Below, piece by piece: positions 20,712 to 34,710 of a stretch of DNA of 37,211 nucleotides (its first letter is position 1; every line of letters starts with the position of its first letter). The position numbers and the translations under genes are program-made. The notes beneath the pieces are model-generated. The model saw nothing but the letters and a program-made list of their open reading frames with translations. It was not told the origin of the DNA and ran no database searches. This DNA is from Desulfurococcales archaeon (GTDB lineage: Archaea; Thermoproteota; Thermoprotei_A; Sulfolobales; AG1), in NCBI GenBank assembly GCA_015521765.1, contig WANO01000064.1:1-37211 (forward strand), in the 5' to 3' direction.

Positions 20712-22253
20712 TTAATATATCTCCTTACTTATACTTAAAAGTCTTCTATAGTATTTATACATGAGATACGATCTCGATGGATTTATCAGAGCCAAGCTAA
20801 CCATAATCGATGGAAATATACTATTACTGATTTCTTTGGCTACACCCCGATCACTATTGATTCGATAATAAGATTTAATTATAGCATCTAATTCTTCCAG
20901 GATTACTGTTGCTTTCTTCTCTGATACCATAAATGAGATGTAATATATGAATGACACTATATCCCAAGCTTTATGGGTGTTATTGTTGCATTTAGATATC
21001 TGTTCAAGATCTATAATATATATGTTGTTTTCGTTATCAACTATAAAATTATCTGGCTTCGAATCACCGAAGCATATATCTCTTTTATGCGTCTTAGCTA
21101 TGGATTCTATTATCTCTTTTATGAGATCTACTATATATCGCTTTGAGCCGGCTTCCTCGATAATCTGAACAAGATCTTTTCCAGCTATATATTCTCTCAC
21201 TATAGCTAATTCCCAAGGATCTATATATAGTATCCTCGGGATTCTAAATCCAACAACAGAGTTGTTCAACCATACACTGTACTCGTTCCAGAATCTCTGT
21301 GTGGAGCTTATAGTTAGCTTGATTCCTATCATTTTAAGCATCTCAACGGCTGGTGACATTATTATCCATTTCAGGTTTGATGGATCATTAAACCTTTTAA
21401 GAACAACAATTCTGCCTGATTTAGTATCATACATCTTTTTTGATACTCCAACGCTACTTGATAATTTAGAAACTAATGACGATCTTGATTTACTGTCTGA
21501 ATCTGATTCTTCTATAAAAATGTTGTGCCTCACATATGTTTTGACATTTTTTATAACTTTTCCTTGTGGGGCTCTTATTAGGTTGTAGGGATCGTATCTC
21601 CCAACAAGGTATTTTTCTAAGGAGTCTATTTTGTGCTTGCCAATAACCTTGTATATGGGATTTATATGTTCTTCAACGATCTTAGCTACTGAAAGCAGTG
21701 ATGTAGCTAGCCTATGCCATGGAGAGATCACGTCGTCTATATCTATTCTATATATAGATCTAATACTGATCGATGAAGGATCATAGTTGCCCACATCGTC
21801 ATTGAGTTTTGTAAGATATGAATAAAGTTTCTCGTCTACTGAATGGCTAGTGTCTATGTATTTTTCTAGAATAGACGCTATTAACGAGCTCTCGGTTCTT
21901 ATAAGCTGGCTGTATATTGCTGAGGCAAGAGGAAATTTTATGTTCACTAAAAACTCGATGTTGAGGTCTTTAAATACAAGGAGCTCCTGATACATTCTAA
22001 CGCTTAGTCTTTTAATAGCTAGATCTATGTATCGCTGATCTCTGTTGTGGTTAGATAAAATATATAGGTAACATAGATTGAATCCCGCTATTTCCGTTAT
22101 GCAGTCGAGTTCAAGTAGTTTTGAGGGGACCTCAATAACGTATATTTCTATATGGCCCTCTGGCTCCTTATCCACAGAGTCTTTTGACACGCTTATTTGT
22201 TTTAACGTGTCTATAGGTGTTATCTTTATGTTTGGCTGATTTCTAACCTTCAA
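20712..22253 (-). CDS. Protein with C-terminal protein-kinase-like fold (Bud32/Kdo-kinase/APH-like) and N-terminal domain of unknown function
   Basis: VVLKRF (candidate ATP-binding Lys), VREYIAGKDL hinge-like region, DICFGDSKPDNFIVDNENNIYIIDLEQ resembling catalytic loop HGDxxxxN and DFG. Confidence 0.7.
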   Translation of the reverse strand: MKVRNQPNIKITPIDTLKQISVSKDSVDKEPEGHIEIYVIEVPSKLLELDCITEIAGFNLCYLYILSNHNRDQRYIDLAIKRLSVRMYQELLVFKDLNIEFLVNIKFPLASAIYSQLIRTESSLIASILEKYIDTSHSVDEKLYSYLTKLNDDVGNYDPSSISIRSIYRIDIDDVISPWHRLATSLLSVAKIVEEHINPIYKVIGKHKIDSLEKYLVGRYDPYNLIRAPQGKVIKNVKTYVRHNIFIEESDSDSKSRSSLVSKLSSSVGVSKKMYDTKSGRIVVLKRFNDPSNLKWIIMSPAVEMLKMIGIKLTISSTQRFWNEYSVWLNNSVVGFRIPRILYIDPWELAIVREYIAGKDLVQIIEEAGSKRYIVDLIKEIIESIAKTHKRDICFGDSKPDNFIVDNENNIYIIDLEQISKCNNNTHKAWDIVSFIYYISFMVSEKKATVILEELDAIIKSYYRINSDRGVAKEISNSIFPSIMVSLALINPSRSYLMYKYYRRLLSISKEIY

Positions 22254-27306: not shown

Positions 27307-28239
27307 CTATCTTCTTGACACTTTCTTTTTTCTGTATCTCCGGTATCTCAATTTCTTCAGTCTTTTCCTTTCTTTCCTTATGTTTATGGCCTCATACATT
27401 ATTGGTGCGAGGGTTAATCCCACTAGTAGGATTGATAGAGGTATGTTGTCTGTAAGATAGAGGTATATAGCGGCTATGTCGCCCCTGAATTCTATAGGTC
27501 CGTAACCTACCTTCAGCATAATATCTATGTTATCGACGTTTGATTGTGTGAAGTTATATACGCATAGATCAGTTGAGCACAGATCCAGTTGAAGAACAGA
27601 TTCTTTTTCGTTTAGATGCTTAACCCTTAGAACAGGCTGGATATAATCTGGGTTATTAAGTCCTTCATAGTCGATCATCATATTGAGCCTATAGCTCTTC
27701 TCGATCTCACCAATAAGGTATCCTATATATAGATATGTCTCATATATCATATCCGCAGAGTAGGGACCTACAACACCAGCGAACGTCATCGATTCCGTTG
27801 CCGTATCCCTAACGAATATTTTGAAGGGGCCATCACCAGATACAGGGATCCTTAAGGTCAGCTCCGGCTTTATCTCCCTATTTGGGGTTATATTAAACGA
27901 CCCCAAGTAATACCATTTGTTTCCATCGATCGAGATATATACATCTGTTTTATTGTAGCTTCTATTACCCCCTAAAGTAGCTTCAAATAAGCTTCCTATA
28001 CTAGCTCTATACAGCGTTATTTTAAGGTAACTAACCTCCTCAAGCCTATAGTTTACCTTGCCCTGAATATCATATCCAACTAAGGGAATATCGAGAAAAA
28101 TTAGAAGAAGTAGAATAACCATAATGATCGATGGAATAGCCAGCTTAATCTTTCTAGAGAACCGAGCCCTAGACCTCATGTAGGCATCCACTATAGAAAA
28201 ATATCTAGATAAATTATAAATTAAATGAGTTAGTAACAA
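27307..28239 (-). CDS. Membrane-anchored protein with large extracytoplasmic domain (two TM segments), ABC-cluster associated, unknown function
   Basis: TM AIPSIIMVILLLLIFLDIPL near N-term, beta-rich ectodomain, second TM SILLVGLTLAPIMYEAI, basic tail; 6 nt after the dppC-like gene. Confidence 0.65.
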   Translation of the reverse strand: MLLTHLIYNLSRYFSIVDAYMRSRARFSRKIKLAIPSIIMVILLLLIFLDIPLVGYDIQGKVNYRLEEVSYLKITLYRASIGSLFEATLGGNRSYNKTDVYISIDGNKWYYLGSFNITPNREIKPELTLRIPVSGDGPFKIFVRDTATESMTFAGVVGPYSADMIYETYLYIGYLIGEIEKSYRLNMMIDYEGLNNPDYIQPVLRVKHLNEKESVLQLDLCSTDLCVYNFTQSNVDNIDIMLKVGYGPIEFRGDIAAIYLYLTDNIPLSILLVGLTLAPIMYEAINIRKERKRLKKLRYRRYRKKKVSRR

Positions 28240-28245
28240 AAAGAG

Positions 28246-29805
28246 CTAGGCGCTCATCCTTCTCATTCTAAGCCTCGGATTAACGATCTCATCCAGCGCA
28301 AGCCCTATCAAGGCAAATCCTAAAGCTATAGTAACTATCCCGGCGATAGGTAGAATGAGCCACCACCACGCACCAGACAATATAGCTCCGCCATAGAACG
28401 CTTCATTAAGCATCTTACCCCATGACGGGAATCCAGGATCACCAAACCCTATAAGCTGGATCGCAGCCTCGGTAAATATAGCTGCCGGAACATCAAGAAC
28501 TATAAAGTATACCATAAGCGGTGTTAGCTGGGGGAATATATGCTTAAACAGTATTCTCGATGTACTAGCACCTAGGCTTCGGGCAACCTCAACATACGTT
28601 TCGTTTCTCAATGCCAGGGTCCATGATCTGATCAATCTAGCCGAGCCGGGCCACGATAGAAGCGTTAAAACTATGAAGATCACAAATATGCTTCTCCCAA
28701 ACACTATTCCAGCAGCAAGTATCAGCGGGAGTGCCGGTATAAAGTACACTACATCTATAAAGTACGTTAATATATGATCGATTTTCCTTCCACCATAGTA
28801 TCCCGCAACCATACCAACAACAACCCCTATAGCAGCTATAGCTAGGGCAACGCTTATGCCGAAGATTATAGCTACTCTAGCTCCATAAACAAACTGTGTC
28901 CATACATCCGCACCCAGATAAGTTGTCCCGAACAAACCATAGGCTAATCCATAGATATACACATTAACAGGATCAAACTCGAATCTCAATCCATCACCAG
29001 AACATACCACTATAAAGTCATTCGGGTTACAATAGTATGTTATGTTTATACCGATAACCACACGTGTATCTTTAGCCAGCAATAACTCGTTAACTGGATT
29101 AACAAATTCCGGCAATTCATAAGGCTGCTTCGGATGCTCAATATAGTATGGAAGTCTCTTTGAAACACCTCTAGAACCTAGCTGATCTGAATACTCGAAA
29201 ACCGCACCAGGCTGAAATCCTGGGAAGTCTTCAACTATATAGAAGCCCATTGGAATAATATAGGTCTCTCCACCCTGCGTTATTGTAGCGTTTTTACCAT
29301 AGAGATCTAGATTCTTGACATATATTACTACTTTATACCATACCTTTCCAGTACTTAGATTATATACCGTATAGTTATATGAAACCAACATTGATTTAGC
29401 TGGATTATATGGATAATCTATATACTCCTCACTCTCAAATACAACAGTCCCAACACCCTTCCCTCTAAATTCAACTATCAAGTTGCCATCAGCGGCTTCA
29501 TAACCGAAATCTACACCCTCATCAATATTGGTATCAACCACTTTCCACTTGGTAAAGGTTTTCTCAATATTCCTTGGAAGATCGGGATCAGTTATAGCAG
29601 CATACCACTCAGGCACCGCAAGTATATCGGCTACATTCATACTAGCTATAGGATCATATGGAGTAGTCATGGGACCTATAGTGCCCAAAACAACATAGAA
29701 TAATATGATAGCTAAACCAGCCCTGCCTTTTCTGCTTCTCAATATAGCTTCAGCGATCTCTTGGGCTATGCTTAATTTTCTGAATGTCCGTCTTCCAAGG
29801 CTCAT
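28246..29805 (-). CDS. ABC transporter permease, DppC/OppC type, with large extracytoplasmic insertion
   Basis: GLFGTTYLGADVWTQFVYGARVA corresponds to the usual GTDxxGRDVxSRxxYGARxS; EVARSLGASTSRILFKHIFPQLTPLMV EAA loop; 519 aa. Confidence 0.9.
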   Translation of the reverse strand: MSLGRRTFRKLSIAQEIAEAILRSRKGRAGLAIILFYVVLGTIGPMTTPYDPIASMNVADILAVPEWYAAITDPDLPRNIEKTFTKWKVVDTNIDEGVDFGYEAADGNLIVEFRGKGVGTVVFESEEYIDYPYNPAKSMLVSYNYTVYNLSTGKVWYKVVIYVKNLDLYGKNATITQGGETYIIPMGFYIVEDFPGFQPGAVFEYSDQLGSRGVSKRLPYYIEHPKQPYELPEFVNPVNELLLAKDTRVVIGINITYYCNPNDFIVVCSGDGLRFEFDPVNVYIYGLAYGLFGTTYLGADVWTQFVYGARVAIIFGISVALAIAAIGVVVGMVAGYYGGRKIDHILTYFIDVVYFIPALPLILAAGIVFGRSIFVIFIVLTLLSWPGSARLIRSWTLALRNETYVEVARSLGASTSRILFKHIFPQLTPLMVYFIVLDVPAAIFTEAAIQLIGFGDPGFPSWGKMLNEAFYGGAILSGAWWWLILPIAGIVTIALGFALIGLALDEIVNPRLRMRRMSA

Positions 29806-30851
29806 CTTCTTTCACCTATTCTGACTCTAGGATCCAATATAGCTATGAGTACATCAGCTATAAATAGTGAGATAACTAGCAACATTGCAGATATAACGAA
29901 AAATGCTGATATAACTGGGTAGTCAAAGTTCACGAATGCTTGGAACGAGTAGTACGCTACACCGGGCCATGAAGAGATTATCTCAAGAATTAATGAACCA
30001 CCAAATATGCCTGGCAGTGTATAGGCTAATCTAGTTATTATAGGAGGCTTTAGATTGGGAACCACCTCCTTCTTTATAACTGTTGAATCTGAGAATCCCT
30101 TAGCCTTGGCTGTGGTAACATAGTCGTTTTCTATTTCAGCTATCATAGTTTGCCTAAAGAAGTACGTCCATGAGCCGAAGAAGGCTGCTAGAGTTGCTAT
30201 ATATAAGGGGGATAGATACCATAGTACATACCTGATATTTTCTAAACTGAAATCGCTAAGTGATGGAGTCCTTACTGGCAGAGGCAGAAGAGTTATTCCG
30301 AACTGTGCCTTTGGAAGGTATGCTAGAAAGTAGTATATGAGTAGAATTATTATCCATGATGGCATTATAAACGAGAATATACCCATCATAGTTATCAGTG
30401 AATCTATAAATTTACCCCTGTGCTTAACGGCTAGGATTCCCGTATAATACCCTAAGAATATAGGCACTATAATCGCATATACATATAGTGCTAACGTATA
30501 GGGTAGCCTAATCAGTATCTCGTCTGAAACCTTTCGGAGCGAATACATTGAATAGCCGAAATCGAATATAAACACGTTCTTAAGGAATAATATTAGCTGG
30601 TTGGGTAATACAGGCTGCTCCAGTCCAAATAGCTTTAGTGTATAGTCTATCCATCCTGAAAATCTAGGATCCTCTTGAGTTCTCTTTATAGCCTGTATTA
30701 CTGGATCGACAGCCTGCATGGGCTCAAATGGGTTGCCTCCATAGAGTATTATTGGCAAAACACGCATTAGTATAAAGAATATGATTATAGATATTAGAAA
30801 CGTAAAGAATAGTGCTAATCCTCTAGCTATAATATATCTACCTATAGCCAT
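29802..30851 (-). CDS. ABC transporter permease, DppB/OppB type
   Basis: DFGYSMYSLRKVSDEILIRLPYTLALY and DYVTTAKAKGFSDSTVIKKEVVPNLKPPIITRLAYTLPGIFGGSLILEII; overlaps the next gene by 4 nt. Confidence 0.92.
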   Translation of the reverse strand: MAIGRYIIARGLALFFTFLISIIIFFILMRVLPIILYGGNPFEPMQAVDPVIQAIKRTQEDPRFSGWIDYTLKLFGLEQPVLPNQLILFLKNVFIFDFGYSMYSLRKVSDEILIRLPYTLALYVYAIIVPIFLGYYTGILAVKHRGKFIDSLITMMGIFSFIMPSWIIILLIYYFLAYLPKAQFGITLLPLPVRTPSLSDFSLENIRYVLWYLSPLYIATLAAFFGSWTYFFRQTMIAEIENDYVTTAKAKGFSDSTVIKKEVVPNLKPPIITRLAYTLPGIFGGSLILEIISSWPGVAYYSFQAFVNFDYPVISAFFVISAMLLVISLFIADVLIAILDPRVRIGERR

Positions 30852-31020: not shown

Positions 31021-33291
31021 CTATCTTCTAACGAATCTAGCTACAGCAGCGACAACAAGCCCTATTACTGCAATAACCATAGCCATAGTTGTTGATGTAG
31101 CATCAAACGCTGTTTCAGGCGCTTTAACTTCCACAGCCTCTATGGATGGTGGTGTTGGCGATACCTCCTCTACCTGTGGTGGTGGCTGTATCTCAACCTG
31201 AACACCGGCTACTTCAACAGTTATGGGCTTAGCCTCTACAGGCCCTGGTGTTGGAGCTACAGCTACCTCACCTACACTAAGTGTGAAGCTCTTCTCGTTC
31301 GTTAACTGCCACAGCATTATTGGCATTGACGCCTTTACGGTAACTGTGTATTGTCCTGCATCTAATGCCGGTATTGATGCCTCGAAGACTCCTCCGCCTG
31401 TATGTGTCATTGGTACCTCTACAGTTCTTGGTCCGCTAACCACTAATGTTGCTGATGCGTTTGTTGCTGGGTTGCCCAGATAGTCTGTTAGCTGTACTCT
31501 TACTGTGAATGGTGTTCCAGCATCAACGGCTGAAGGTGCTTCTAGAACCTCTATTTGGACTGTTCTCTCTGGCACTCTGAATACGTATTCAGGATACCAT
31601 ACTACCTCTGTATAGCCTATCTCTCTTTTAGCTAGGAAGAATGGACCGCTACCTATCATTGCCGTTAATCCTGGCTTTGTTGGATGCGGTATGAATGATG
31701 GATCATCTAGTGGGTTCTCTAACCTCTCGAATATGTGTTTTGGCAACACTCTAAACTCTGTGAAGCCATATAGATCGATCCATCCGAATGCACTTAGGTA
31801 GATCTCTATTGTTCTTTCATCAACAACCTCCATTCTAACTATCGCCTCTATATCGGGTCCATAGTATCTCCTGGTCTTCAGCTCCATACCGAACTTTCTT
31901 ATCGTGAACTCTATATCTTCCGCAGTTAATGGTACGCCGTCATGCCACTTAACTCCTTCTCTAACCACCAGGGTTACTTTGGTTAGCGTCTTTCCATCCT
32001 CCTCAACTTTCTCTATAGAGTAGCTCTCGAACAGCACTGGGAGCCTGGGCTCTGCGTAGATGTTTTCTGCTCTAGTCACGTAGCCGAACGTGTATATTCT
32101 GCTTATTATCTGGGACTCGGTTGCCCACAGATAGATGGCCGGATGTAGCGTTGTTAGATCAACGGTGTTGTAGTATCTTATGGTTCCTCCAAATGGCTTA
32201 TCCTTGAATCTTATATTTGACCACCAGAAGTGGTTGAACCCTACAGGATCCTTTAGCGGAGGTGCGTAGTTGAGTACTAGAGTATCTCTGTCTAGCTCAC
32301 CGCTTAATGCAGTTATACCTATACCTGTATATACAGGTATCCATGGGACTATCTCTTCAACAAGTATTTTCTGTACTTCTAGTGCGTATTTCTGTGCCTC
32401 CTCTATGGTTTCTGCATAGTAGAACTTGTCTAGCAACTCATCAACCCTGGGATCGCTAACTCTCCACTCGTTCCATCCACCTGGCCTTATCTGGGATGAG
32501 TGCCAGAAGTAGTACATGAATAGTGGGAACCTGCCTAGAAGCCATCCGATTATCCATGCCTGGGCTGTGCCTGATGCTGTTCTAGCGTCTAGCTCTCTGC
32601 TTGATACTGGAACTATCTTTATTGATAGGCCTATCGCTTCAGCCTCAGACTTTAGATATTGGGCGAACCACCAGAATGTTGGTGAGGTTGCCTCTGGTAG
32701 GGTTAGCAACTCTATCTCTACCTTCTTCATGCCCTCATTAGGATCACACCAACTGTTGGGGTCGTCTGGACATGGATCAAATACCCTATCCAATAGCTCT
32801 CTAGCCTTCTCACGGTCATATGGATAAATCTTCTCAAAGTCAGCTTCCCTATTTACCCATACACCCTGTGTTGGTGGAACTATAAATGAGTTCTTAATAG
32901 CTATACCCTGCAGAGGTGACTCAGCGATCATTTTATCCCTGTTTATTAGATGGGCTAGTGCCTGTCTTACCTCCAGATACTTTACTGGCCAGTTCTGCAC
33001 GTTAAAGTGTATCGTGCCTAAAGCCGTGAAGCCTGCAGTAAATATTATGTGCGCATCTGGCCTGTTCTTCCTTATTCTATCAAGGTCTTTAGGCAATACG
33101 CCTACTAGATCAAATTCTCCAGCCTCGAACGCAAGTAATCTTAGGTTGTAGTCTCTCTGAACAGTAAATGTTATTCTATCGATGTATGGCCCATATCTTA
33201 TATCGACTTCCTGAGCCATATAGACGGGGGCAGCAAATATGGAAGATACCATAGCTACTAGAAATATTAGCCCTATGATCCATCTTTTCAT
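31021..33291 (-). CDS. ABC transporter solute-binding protein, family 5 (SBP_bac_5), apparently circularly permuted, C-terminal Ig-like segment and TM anchor
   Basis: Signal peptide, VRQALAHLINRDKMI, LVEEIVPWIPVYT, then VVREGVKWHDGVPLTAEDIEFTIRKF, VLPKHIFE, GSGPFFLAKRE; C-terminal AMVIAVIGLVVAAVARFVRR. Confidence 0.9.
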   Translation of the reverse strand: MKRWIIGLIFLVAMVSSIFAAPVYMAQEVDIRYGPYIDRITFTVQRDYNLRLLAFEAGEFDLVGVLPKDLDRIRKNRPDAHIIFTAGFTALGTIHFNVQNWPVKYLEVRQALAHLINRDKMIAESPLQGIAIKNSFIVPPTQGVWVNREADFEKIYPYDREKARELLDRVFDPCPDDPNSWCDPNEGMKKVEIELLTLPEATSPTFWWFAQYLKSEAEAIGLSIKIVPVSSRELDARTASGTAQAWIIGWLLGRFPLFMYYFWHSSQIRPGGWNEWRVSDPRVDELLDKFYYAETIEEAQKYALEVQKILVEEIVPWIPVYTGIGITALSGELDRDTLVLNYAPPLKDPVGFNHFWWSNIRFKDKPFGGTIRYYNTVDLTTLHPAIYLWATESQIISRIYTFGYVTRAENIYAEPRLPVLFESYSIEKVEEDGKTLTKVTLVVREGVKWHDGVPLTAEDIEFTIRKFGMELKTRRYYGPDIEAIVRMEVVDERTIEIYLSAFGWIDLYGFTEFRVLPKHIFERLENPLDDPSFIPHPTKPGLTAMIGSGPFFLAKREIGYTEVVWYPEYVFRVPERTVQIEVLEAPSAVDAGTPFTVRVQLTDYLGNPATNASATLVVSGPRTVEVPMTHTGGGVFEASIPALDAGQYTVTVKASMPIMLWQLTNEKSFTLSVGEVAVAPTPGPVEAKPITVEVAGVQVEIQPPPQVEEVSPTPPSIEAVEVKAPETAFDATSTTMAMVIAVIGLVVAAVARFVRR

Positions 33292-33537: not shown

Positions 33538-34710
33538 CTATTTCCTTGCAAACCCAACTATAGCTAGTCCGATCAGCAGTACAGCAGCTATAACTATCAG
33601 CGCCTGAGACAAGCTTCCAGAAAGCGATGAGACCGACTCAGACATCGAGCTTAAGCTCTCCTCAACATTTGATGCGAGAGTCCTGAGGTTGTTGTTGACC
33701 TCCTCAGCCAGTTTATCTATCCTCTCGTTTGTCCTCTTTATATTGTCGTTTAGGTTGGCCAGATACGAGTTAACAGAGTTCCCAAAATCCTGAAACGCCT
33801 GGGCAAGACTCGTTAGCTGACCGTTCAAATCTTCAATAGCACCGCTTAAGCTTCTTAAAGACTCCTCAGCAGCATCCAGCCTGCTTGAATGCTCATTCAA
33901 TGTACCCTCTATACTGGCAAGCCTGCTGGCTAGCTCAGCCTCTCTCTGCTGAGATGCAGCTATAAAGGTTAGAAGAGCTTCCGAAGCTATTGAGGCAGCC
34001 CTCTCCGACACCTCGTCATACATGCTTATAGCCTGCTCAACATTACCGAAGCTATAGAGCTGAGTGTCTGCTTCAGCAAGCAGATTTTGCACCTCTTCCA
34101 ACGCAGATCTGAGATCTGCAAGGGCTAGCCCACCAACAGTCTCAACTATAGATACAGTATTTCTAGCGTTCTCAAATTTAACTAGAGCCTCAACCCTCTT
34201 GTTGTCTACAACAATATGATCCAGTATGGCTAGAGTAAACGTTCTAGATGTTGAAATATCAAATGACTGGTCACCCACCTTCACAGAGCCCATTATACTT
34301 ACCTCCAGCTCACCCCTACCAGCTACAGCGCCAAACGGTATCGGTACTCTAGCCACCAAAAGATCTCTTACCCTGAATGTTTCGCCATCAACAGTAACAG
34401 TGACTGGAGCCCTAGGACGCACGTATGCCAGTTGCACCTCTTCAACTATACCTGCTCTCAGTACTGCTTTACCTTCAAGAGCCTCTAGAGATCCGCCAGA
34501 AGGAACAAATATGAATGCCGTTACTTCAACCCATTGATAGCCTCTATACACGGTTGTTTTATCCACTCGTATATCAACGACTCTAGGCTCTTCTTGTGCG
34601 TATGCTGTATTAAACGTCAGTATTCCAACAACTATAAGTGAGAGCAGCAGTAGATGGATCCCGTATACGGCTTTGCGTGCATCTTTAGATCTAGCCATAG
34701 CACCACCCAT
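33538..34710 (-). CDS. Secreted, C-terminally anchored coiled-coil protein (surface stalk-like)
   Basis: N-terminal signal (LLLLSLIVVGILTFNTAYA), beta-rich segment, long heptad-like coiled coil (residues ~240-365), C-terminal TM ALIVIAAVLLIGLAIVGFARK. Confidence 0.65.
   Translation of the reverse strand: MGGAMARSKDARKAVYGIHLLLLSLIVVGILTFNTAYAQEEPRVVDIRVDKTTVYRGYQWVEVTAFIFVPSGGSLEALEGKAVLRAGIVEEVQLAYVRPRAPVTVTVDGETFRVRDLLVARVPIPFGAVAGRGELEVSIMGSVKVGDQSFDISTSRTFTLAILDHIVVDNKRVEALVKFENARNTVSIVETVGGLALADLRSALEEVQNLLAEADTQLYSFGNVEQAISMYDEVSERAASIASEALLTFIAASQQREAELASRLASIEGTLNEHSSRLDAAEESLRSLSGAIEDLNGQLTSLAQAFQDFGNSVNSYLANLNDNIKRTNERIDKLAEEVNNNLRTLASNVEESLSSMSESVSSLSGSLSQALIVIAAVLLIGLAIVGFARK

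Follow-up and report, generated by a model that had tools for sequence, protein, structure and literature searches.

Does the gene at 31021-33291 (minus strand) of a Desulfurococcales archaeon contig encode one solute-binding protein whose chain has been circularly permuted, and, if so, does the product still serve an importer? The window, i.e. the whole stretch of DNA analysed (37,211 nt), holds this gene as an intact open reading frame with an ATG start, encoding 756 aa. Normal family-5 solute-binding proteins (SBP_bac_5, cluster C, PF00496) carry three segments in the order N-M-C, while the order here is M-C-N. Circular permutation seldom occurs in nature in a large protein that is mechanically active.

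Order of the segments

The chain runs from a signal peptide through M, C, a short join and N, followed by an Ig-like domain, a linker rich in Pro and Thr and finally a transmembrane helix (all on the minus strand):

33214-33291, minus: signal peptide, residues ~1-26 (sequence MKRWIIGLIFLVAMVSSIFAAPVYMA)
32785-33189, minus: segment M, residues 35-169, the middle of a normal family-5 protein (segment HMM)
32257-32718, minus: segment C, residues ~192-345, the normal C-terminal part (segment HMM)
32188-32256, minus: fusion region, old C-terminal tail and old mature N-terminus, residues ~346-368 (hhalign columns 294-325)
31576-32190, minus: segment N, residues 368-572, the normal N-terminal part (segment HMM)
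31264-31554, minus: putative Ig-like beta domain, residues ~580-676 (weak profile matches and model)
31099-31263, minus: Pro/Thr-rich linker, residues ~677-731 (translation)
31024-31098, minus: C-terminal transmembrane anchor, residues 732-756 (translation)

Three segment HMMs, made from 11 normal proteins of the source genome and related genomes and run over all open frames of at least 250 aa in the fetched loci, each gave one match to the protein: M at residues 35-169 (model 1-134 of 137; 70.9 bits), C at 192-328 (model 3-138 of 146; 74.4 bits) and N at 376-558 (model 7-169 of 185; 74.8 bits). An earlier note made from the sequence had proposed, with no strand stated, that the two halves are swapped and each present once, with the junction near residue 365 (about nt 32196); the HMMs place M, C and then N, one match apiece, and the N half starts with GGTIRYY at residue 368 (nt 32190). 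Read in translation, the fusion region (WWSNIRFKDKPFGGTIRYY) joins a full C-terminal tail (…WWSNIRF) to the mature N-terminus (GGTIRYY…), with about five linking residues (KDKPF) in between. The family motifs WHDG.P.TA.D, GSGPF and VRQAL are kept.

The PF00496 model scored 137.3 bits (cut-off 32.4) and, as the same note had predicted, matched in two stretches of reversed order, the better being residues 35-266 (profile 146-364), with no colinear full-length match in the native order. Against DppA/OppA-like chains in the PDB, residues ~35-320 aligned with ~204-460 and residues ~420-530 with ~50-165. The profile of the M-C-N class compared as-is with the normal profile (hhalign) likewise gave 1-294 to 187-481 and 325-528 to 1-187; after rotation a single alignment of 1-478 to 1-481 was obtained (E 8e-111), so that the proposed circular permutation holds over the whole length, the rotated sequence matching the normal family from one end to the other and each segment occurring once. 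Chance domain matches were rejected because the segment, PDB and profile-profile scores are too high. At the level of family profiles no segment is lost or doubled in the class, which by these alignments is a permuted variant and not an ordinary SBP_bac_5 member. Among the NCBIfam equivalogs DppA, Opp4A, NikA, GsiB, SapA and OppA, the best match reached 73.3 bits, against a cut-off of 650.

AlphaFold models from a five-sequence input had low confidence for both the full length (pLDDT 53.5) and the core only (46.9), and Foldseek on the low-confidence full-length model returned weak, low-TM local matches to family-5 structures; from the alignments we infer a permuted two-lobed fold. The Ig-like segment and the C-terminal anchor that had been described after the core are both present: weak Big_1, MG4 and Invasin_D3 matches to the former all lie under curated cut-offs, and its strands are locally confident in the AlphaFold model (approximately residues 580-650, where pLDDT is about 85), with MG4-like fold matches in Foldseek.

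The 756-aa protein is thus very probably the substrate-binding subunit of an ABC importer of the Dpp/Opp type, built on the family-5 fold with its chain circularly permuted. Had two separate binding-protein genes fused instead, one giving the C-half and the other the N-half, the fold would be identical but no single gene would have rotated. In several close orthologs (e.g. L010) the N segment scores below its length expectation relative to M and C, and the halves could therefore differ in history; however, the segments are complementary, with neither overlap nor gap, as rotation predicts, and we consider such a fusion unlikely. Rotation of one gene would usually proceed by gene duplication, fusion and trimming.

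Operon and DppC insertion

The genes around the permuted gene are as follows:

33538-34710, minus: membrane-anchored coiled-coil protein, directly upstream (conserved neighbour)
29802-30851, minus: DppB-type permease (PF00528, 3.2e-30; position kept in orthologous loci)
28246-29805, minus: DppC-type permease, 519 aa (PF00528, 2.4e-22, residues 327-513; position conserved)
28936-29637, minus: DppC insertion separating TM1 from TM2, residues ~57-290, predicted extracytoplasmic (alignment)
27307-28239, minus: protein with two transmembrane helices and a beta-rich region, fourth operon gene (homologs at equal position in L009, L010 and L165)

As expected for a Dpp/Opp importer, DppB- and DppC-type permease genes adjoin the binding-protein gene. 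The coiled-coil neighbour, with a beta-rich start and a long coiled coil, gave no family match beyond coiled-coil noise and has 32-41% identical homologs at equal position in L009, L010, L011 and L165; no Pfam match was found for the two-helix protein. The full gene set is kept in L009, L010 and L165; the short contigs L011 and L012 carry some of its genes. No ATPase gene (DppD/DppF with oligo_HPY) lies beside the permuted gene within the window; ATPases with oligo_HPY adjoin the deeper relatives L155 and L157. In Desulfurococcaceae archaeon AG1 (L009, 12293-14193), genes for DUF4350 and MoxR-type AAA proteins come after the importer genes.

These surroundings bear on another reading, that the permuted domain was kept while import was lost, leaving a tethered surface receptor or sensor. 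The Ig-like domain, the long linker, the coiled-coil neighbour gene, the operon without an ATPase gene and the DUF4350 and MoxR genes next in AG1 would suit such a role. However, at the closely related loci L009-L012, L164 and L165 the gene is directly followed by DppB and DppC, ABC ATPase genes adjoin the deeper relatives, and a simple motif scan found no neighbouring ATPase in many normal-order systems here either; we consider loss of import unlikely. The family motifs are retained, as are the signal peptide, the anchor and the permeases, which favours a working importer subunit: the best reading is a functional binding protein tethered to the membrane, with a tether that would leave from a different surface, and we infer a complete transporter.

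The insertion makes DppC roughly 200 residues longer than normal. In 10/10 non-basal M-C-N systems examined DppC has 478-526 aa, in two basal M-C-N systems 309 and 337 aa, and in 18/18 normal-order systems 280-311 aa with the insertion absent; the ~200-residue insertion (window, L009, L152-L155) was seen only with M-C-N proteins among those compared. The short DppCs of the basal systems suggest that the permutation probably preceded the insertion. In this modest sample the relation between insertion and permutation is an association, short of demonstrating that the two are functionally linked.

Distribution and a second rotation

The survey covered the phylum of the source genome and plasmids, plus one close-relative scan of genome contigs. 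The ortholog search for a shared order, which the earlier note had called for, found M-C-N orthologs (E < 1e-40; 51-63% identity) in 14 of the 197 genomes of the source's order, several copies being present in some. A wider sample of the phylum added 20 further genomes with relatives that are 27-34% identical and give a single colinear alignment with the window protein; among the loci of these distant relatives that were read, all proteins with three recognised segments are M-C-N. Within the class, 33/37 members have a hydrophobic N-terminus and 33/37 a C-terminal transmembrane helix. That assembly or binning wrongly joined the halves of two genes has a negligible probability, fragmented and 64% complete as the window's genome is, and is refuted, in line with the earlier note, by the same order in orthologs of independent assemblies (Desulfurococcaceae archaeon AG1 and Thermoprotei, Desulfurococcales and Pyrodictiaceae MAGs, other projects' included; 58-63% identity) and by the joining of the halves as a single gene in every intact ortholog. 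Relatives were not found among the viral contigs searched, and M-C-N order was not seen on plasmids, where the best matches listed are all in two pieces.

Altogether 110 distinct proteins with all three segments were recognised (55 N-M-C, 37 M-C-N and 18 C-N-M), counts that do not represent frequencies because similarity to permuted queries decided which loci were fetched. Non-cyclic shuffling was rejected, with zero cases among the 110. The family thus shows all three cyclic orders, in full operons, and some genomes contain two or even all three. In a tree built from re-cyclised sequences all M-C-N proteins form a single clade (SH-aLRT 98-99), and one origin is claimed for this class on the basis of that tree.

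The C-N-M class was found in Thermoproteota, haloarchaea and alphaproteobacteria, its cut site following the helix that ends M and preceding the first C strand. Its profile compared as-is with the normal one aligned 174-496 to 1-320 and 2-147 to 335-481, and in the PDB every relative listed with a C-N-M query has the normal order. A plasmid tblastn search with a query across the C-N join gave one-piece matches in haloarchaea and alphaproteobacteria. A C-N-M query was covered to at least 80% by 43 plasmid records, and those among the matches listed are haloarchaeal or alphaproteobacterial. Twelve plasmid regions were read: ten are C-N-M (L188-L195, L197, L198; hosts Nitratireductor, Halorussus, Halalkalicoccus, Roseomonas, Ketogulonicigenium, Maritalea, Neorhizobium, Microvirga, Halostagnicola and Natrialba), one is normal (Cytobacillus) and one is split (Neorhizobium L199), the binding-protein gene of the last being divided in the annotation and showing N-M alone in the one frame that was read. 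Where annotated, the plasmid C-N-M proteins are named "ABC transporter substrate-binding protein", and most are encoded inside permease and ATPase operons. M28 peptidase genes adjoin several of these genes. In L199 (6299-7894; Neorhizobium galegae VafX2), a 531-aa permease appears to be a fusion of DppB-like and DppC-like parts.

The C-N-M proteins occupy about four places on the tree, where deep branches are weak. The AU test speaks against a single clade of these proteins (p 0.019), and with it against one origin for the whole class, but some pairs of subgroups are not separable (p 0.44 and 0.17). By these trees the C-N-M order probably, not certainly, arose more than once. One C-N-M subgroup (L159, L160 and Nitratireductor L188) has a different, repeat-rich DppC insertion at the equal site, and no DppC insertion was found in the other C-N-M systems compared. 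The DppC genes with this large insert, which by eye is propeller-like and lies in the first outer loop, are:

L159:2784-4541
L160:3084-4832
L188:7074-8747

Proposed mechanism and known counterparts

Because the old N- and C-terminal ends are close together, the permuted chain would be expected to fold into the ordinary two-lobed clam-shell, bind its solute in the usual cleft and pass it to the DppB/DppC channel. After rotation the anchor would follow the N segment instead of the old C-terminus; the protein would therefore be tethered by a different surface and may be presented differently to the permease. In DppA both chain ends are in lobe I. The M-C-N cut (DppA about residue 209, from the PDB alignment) presumably falls in the same lobe, whereas the C-N-M cut, which the PDB alignment puts at about residue 340-360, would be in lobe II. 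The M-C-N rotation would have occurred once, before DppC gained its extra domain.

With DppA/OppA/NikA-type family-5 proteins (PF00496) the M-C-N proteins share the three segments, the family motifs, the signal peptide and the partner permeases; they differ in having M-C-N instead of N-M-C order, which all the PDB relatives listed have. Archaeal Dpp/Opp-class proteins that carry a C-terminal anchor, such as L003 and L004 of the same genome, have in common with the window system a signal peptide, a Thr/Pro-rich linker, a transmembrane anchor and DppB/DppC, but their order is normal and DppCs of this type (280-311 aa) carry no insert. Tp0684 (MglB-2) of Treponema pallidum, a glucose-binding protein of cluster B, is likewise a natural, membrane-tethered permutation of an ABC binding protein (PMC4990184). 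It is cut in another fold, and its permuted part is about 100 residues long and poorly conserved (PMC4990184), whereas in the M-C-N proteins the rotation involves the entire family-5 core and each segment can still be recognised. A permuted cluster-B protein is thus known, and a search of open-licence PubMed Central papers yielded no account of permutation in family-5 binding proteins.

Tethering was suggested by the authors on MglB-2 as a driver of its permutation (PMC4990184). The idea fits the M-C-N class, as 33/37 are anchored; a C-terminal anchor was found in 0/10 plasmid C-N-M proteins, so tethering is not the whole story. It is possible, and we propose it tentatively, that family-5 proteins were permuted several times at two sites, yielding lasting lineages, as an adaptation of both tethering and docking on the permease, with some DppCs gaining extracytoplasmic domains in response.

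Evolution has rearranged a well-known protein family on more than one occasion, in two rotations, M-C-N and C-N-M. Co-occurring orders offer matched pairs for testing the roles of chain order, tether position and folding order in a clam-shell protein and its transporter. The plain annotation "ABC transporter substrate-binding protein" hides the structural class, and colinear domain models under-score the permuted one.

Elsewhere in the window, 20712-22253 encodes a 513-aa protein in which, by eye, an unrecognised N-terminal region precedes a Bud32-like kinase C-terminal part (DSKPDNFIVD).
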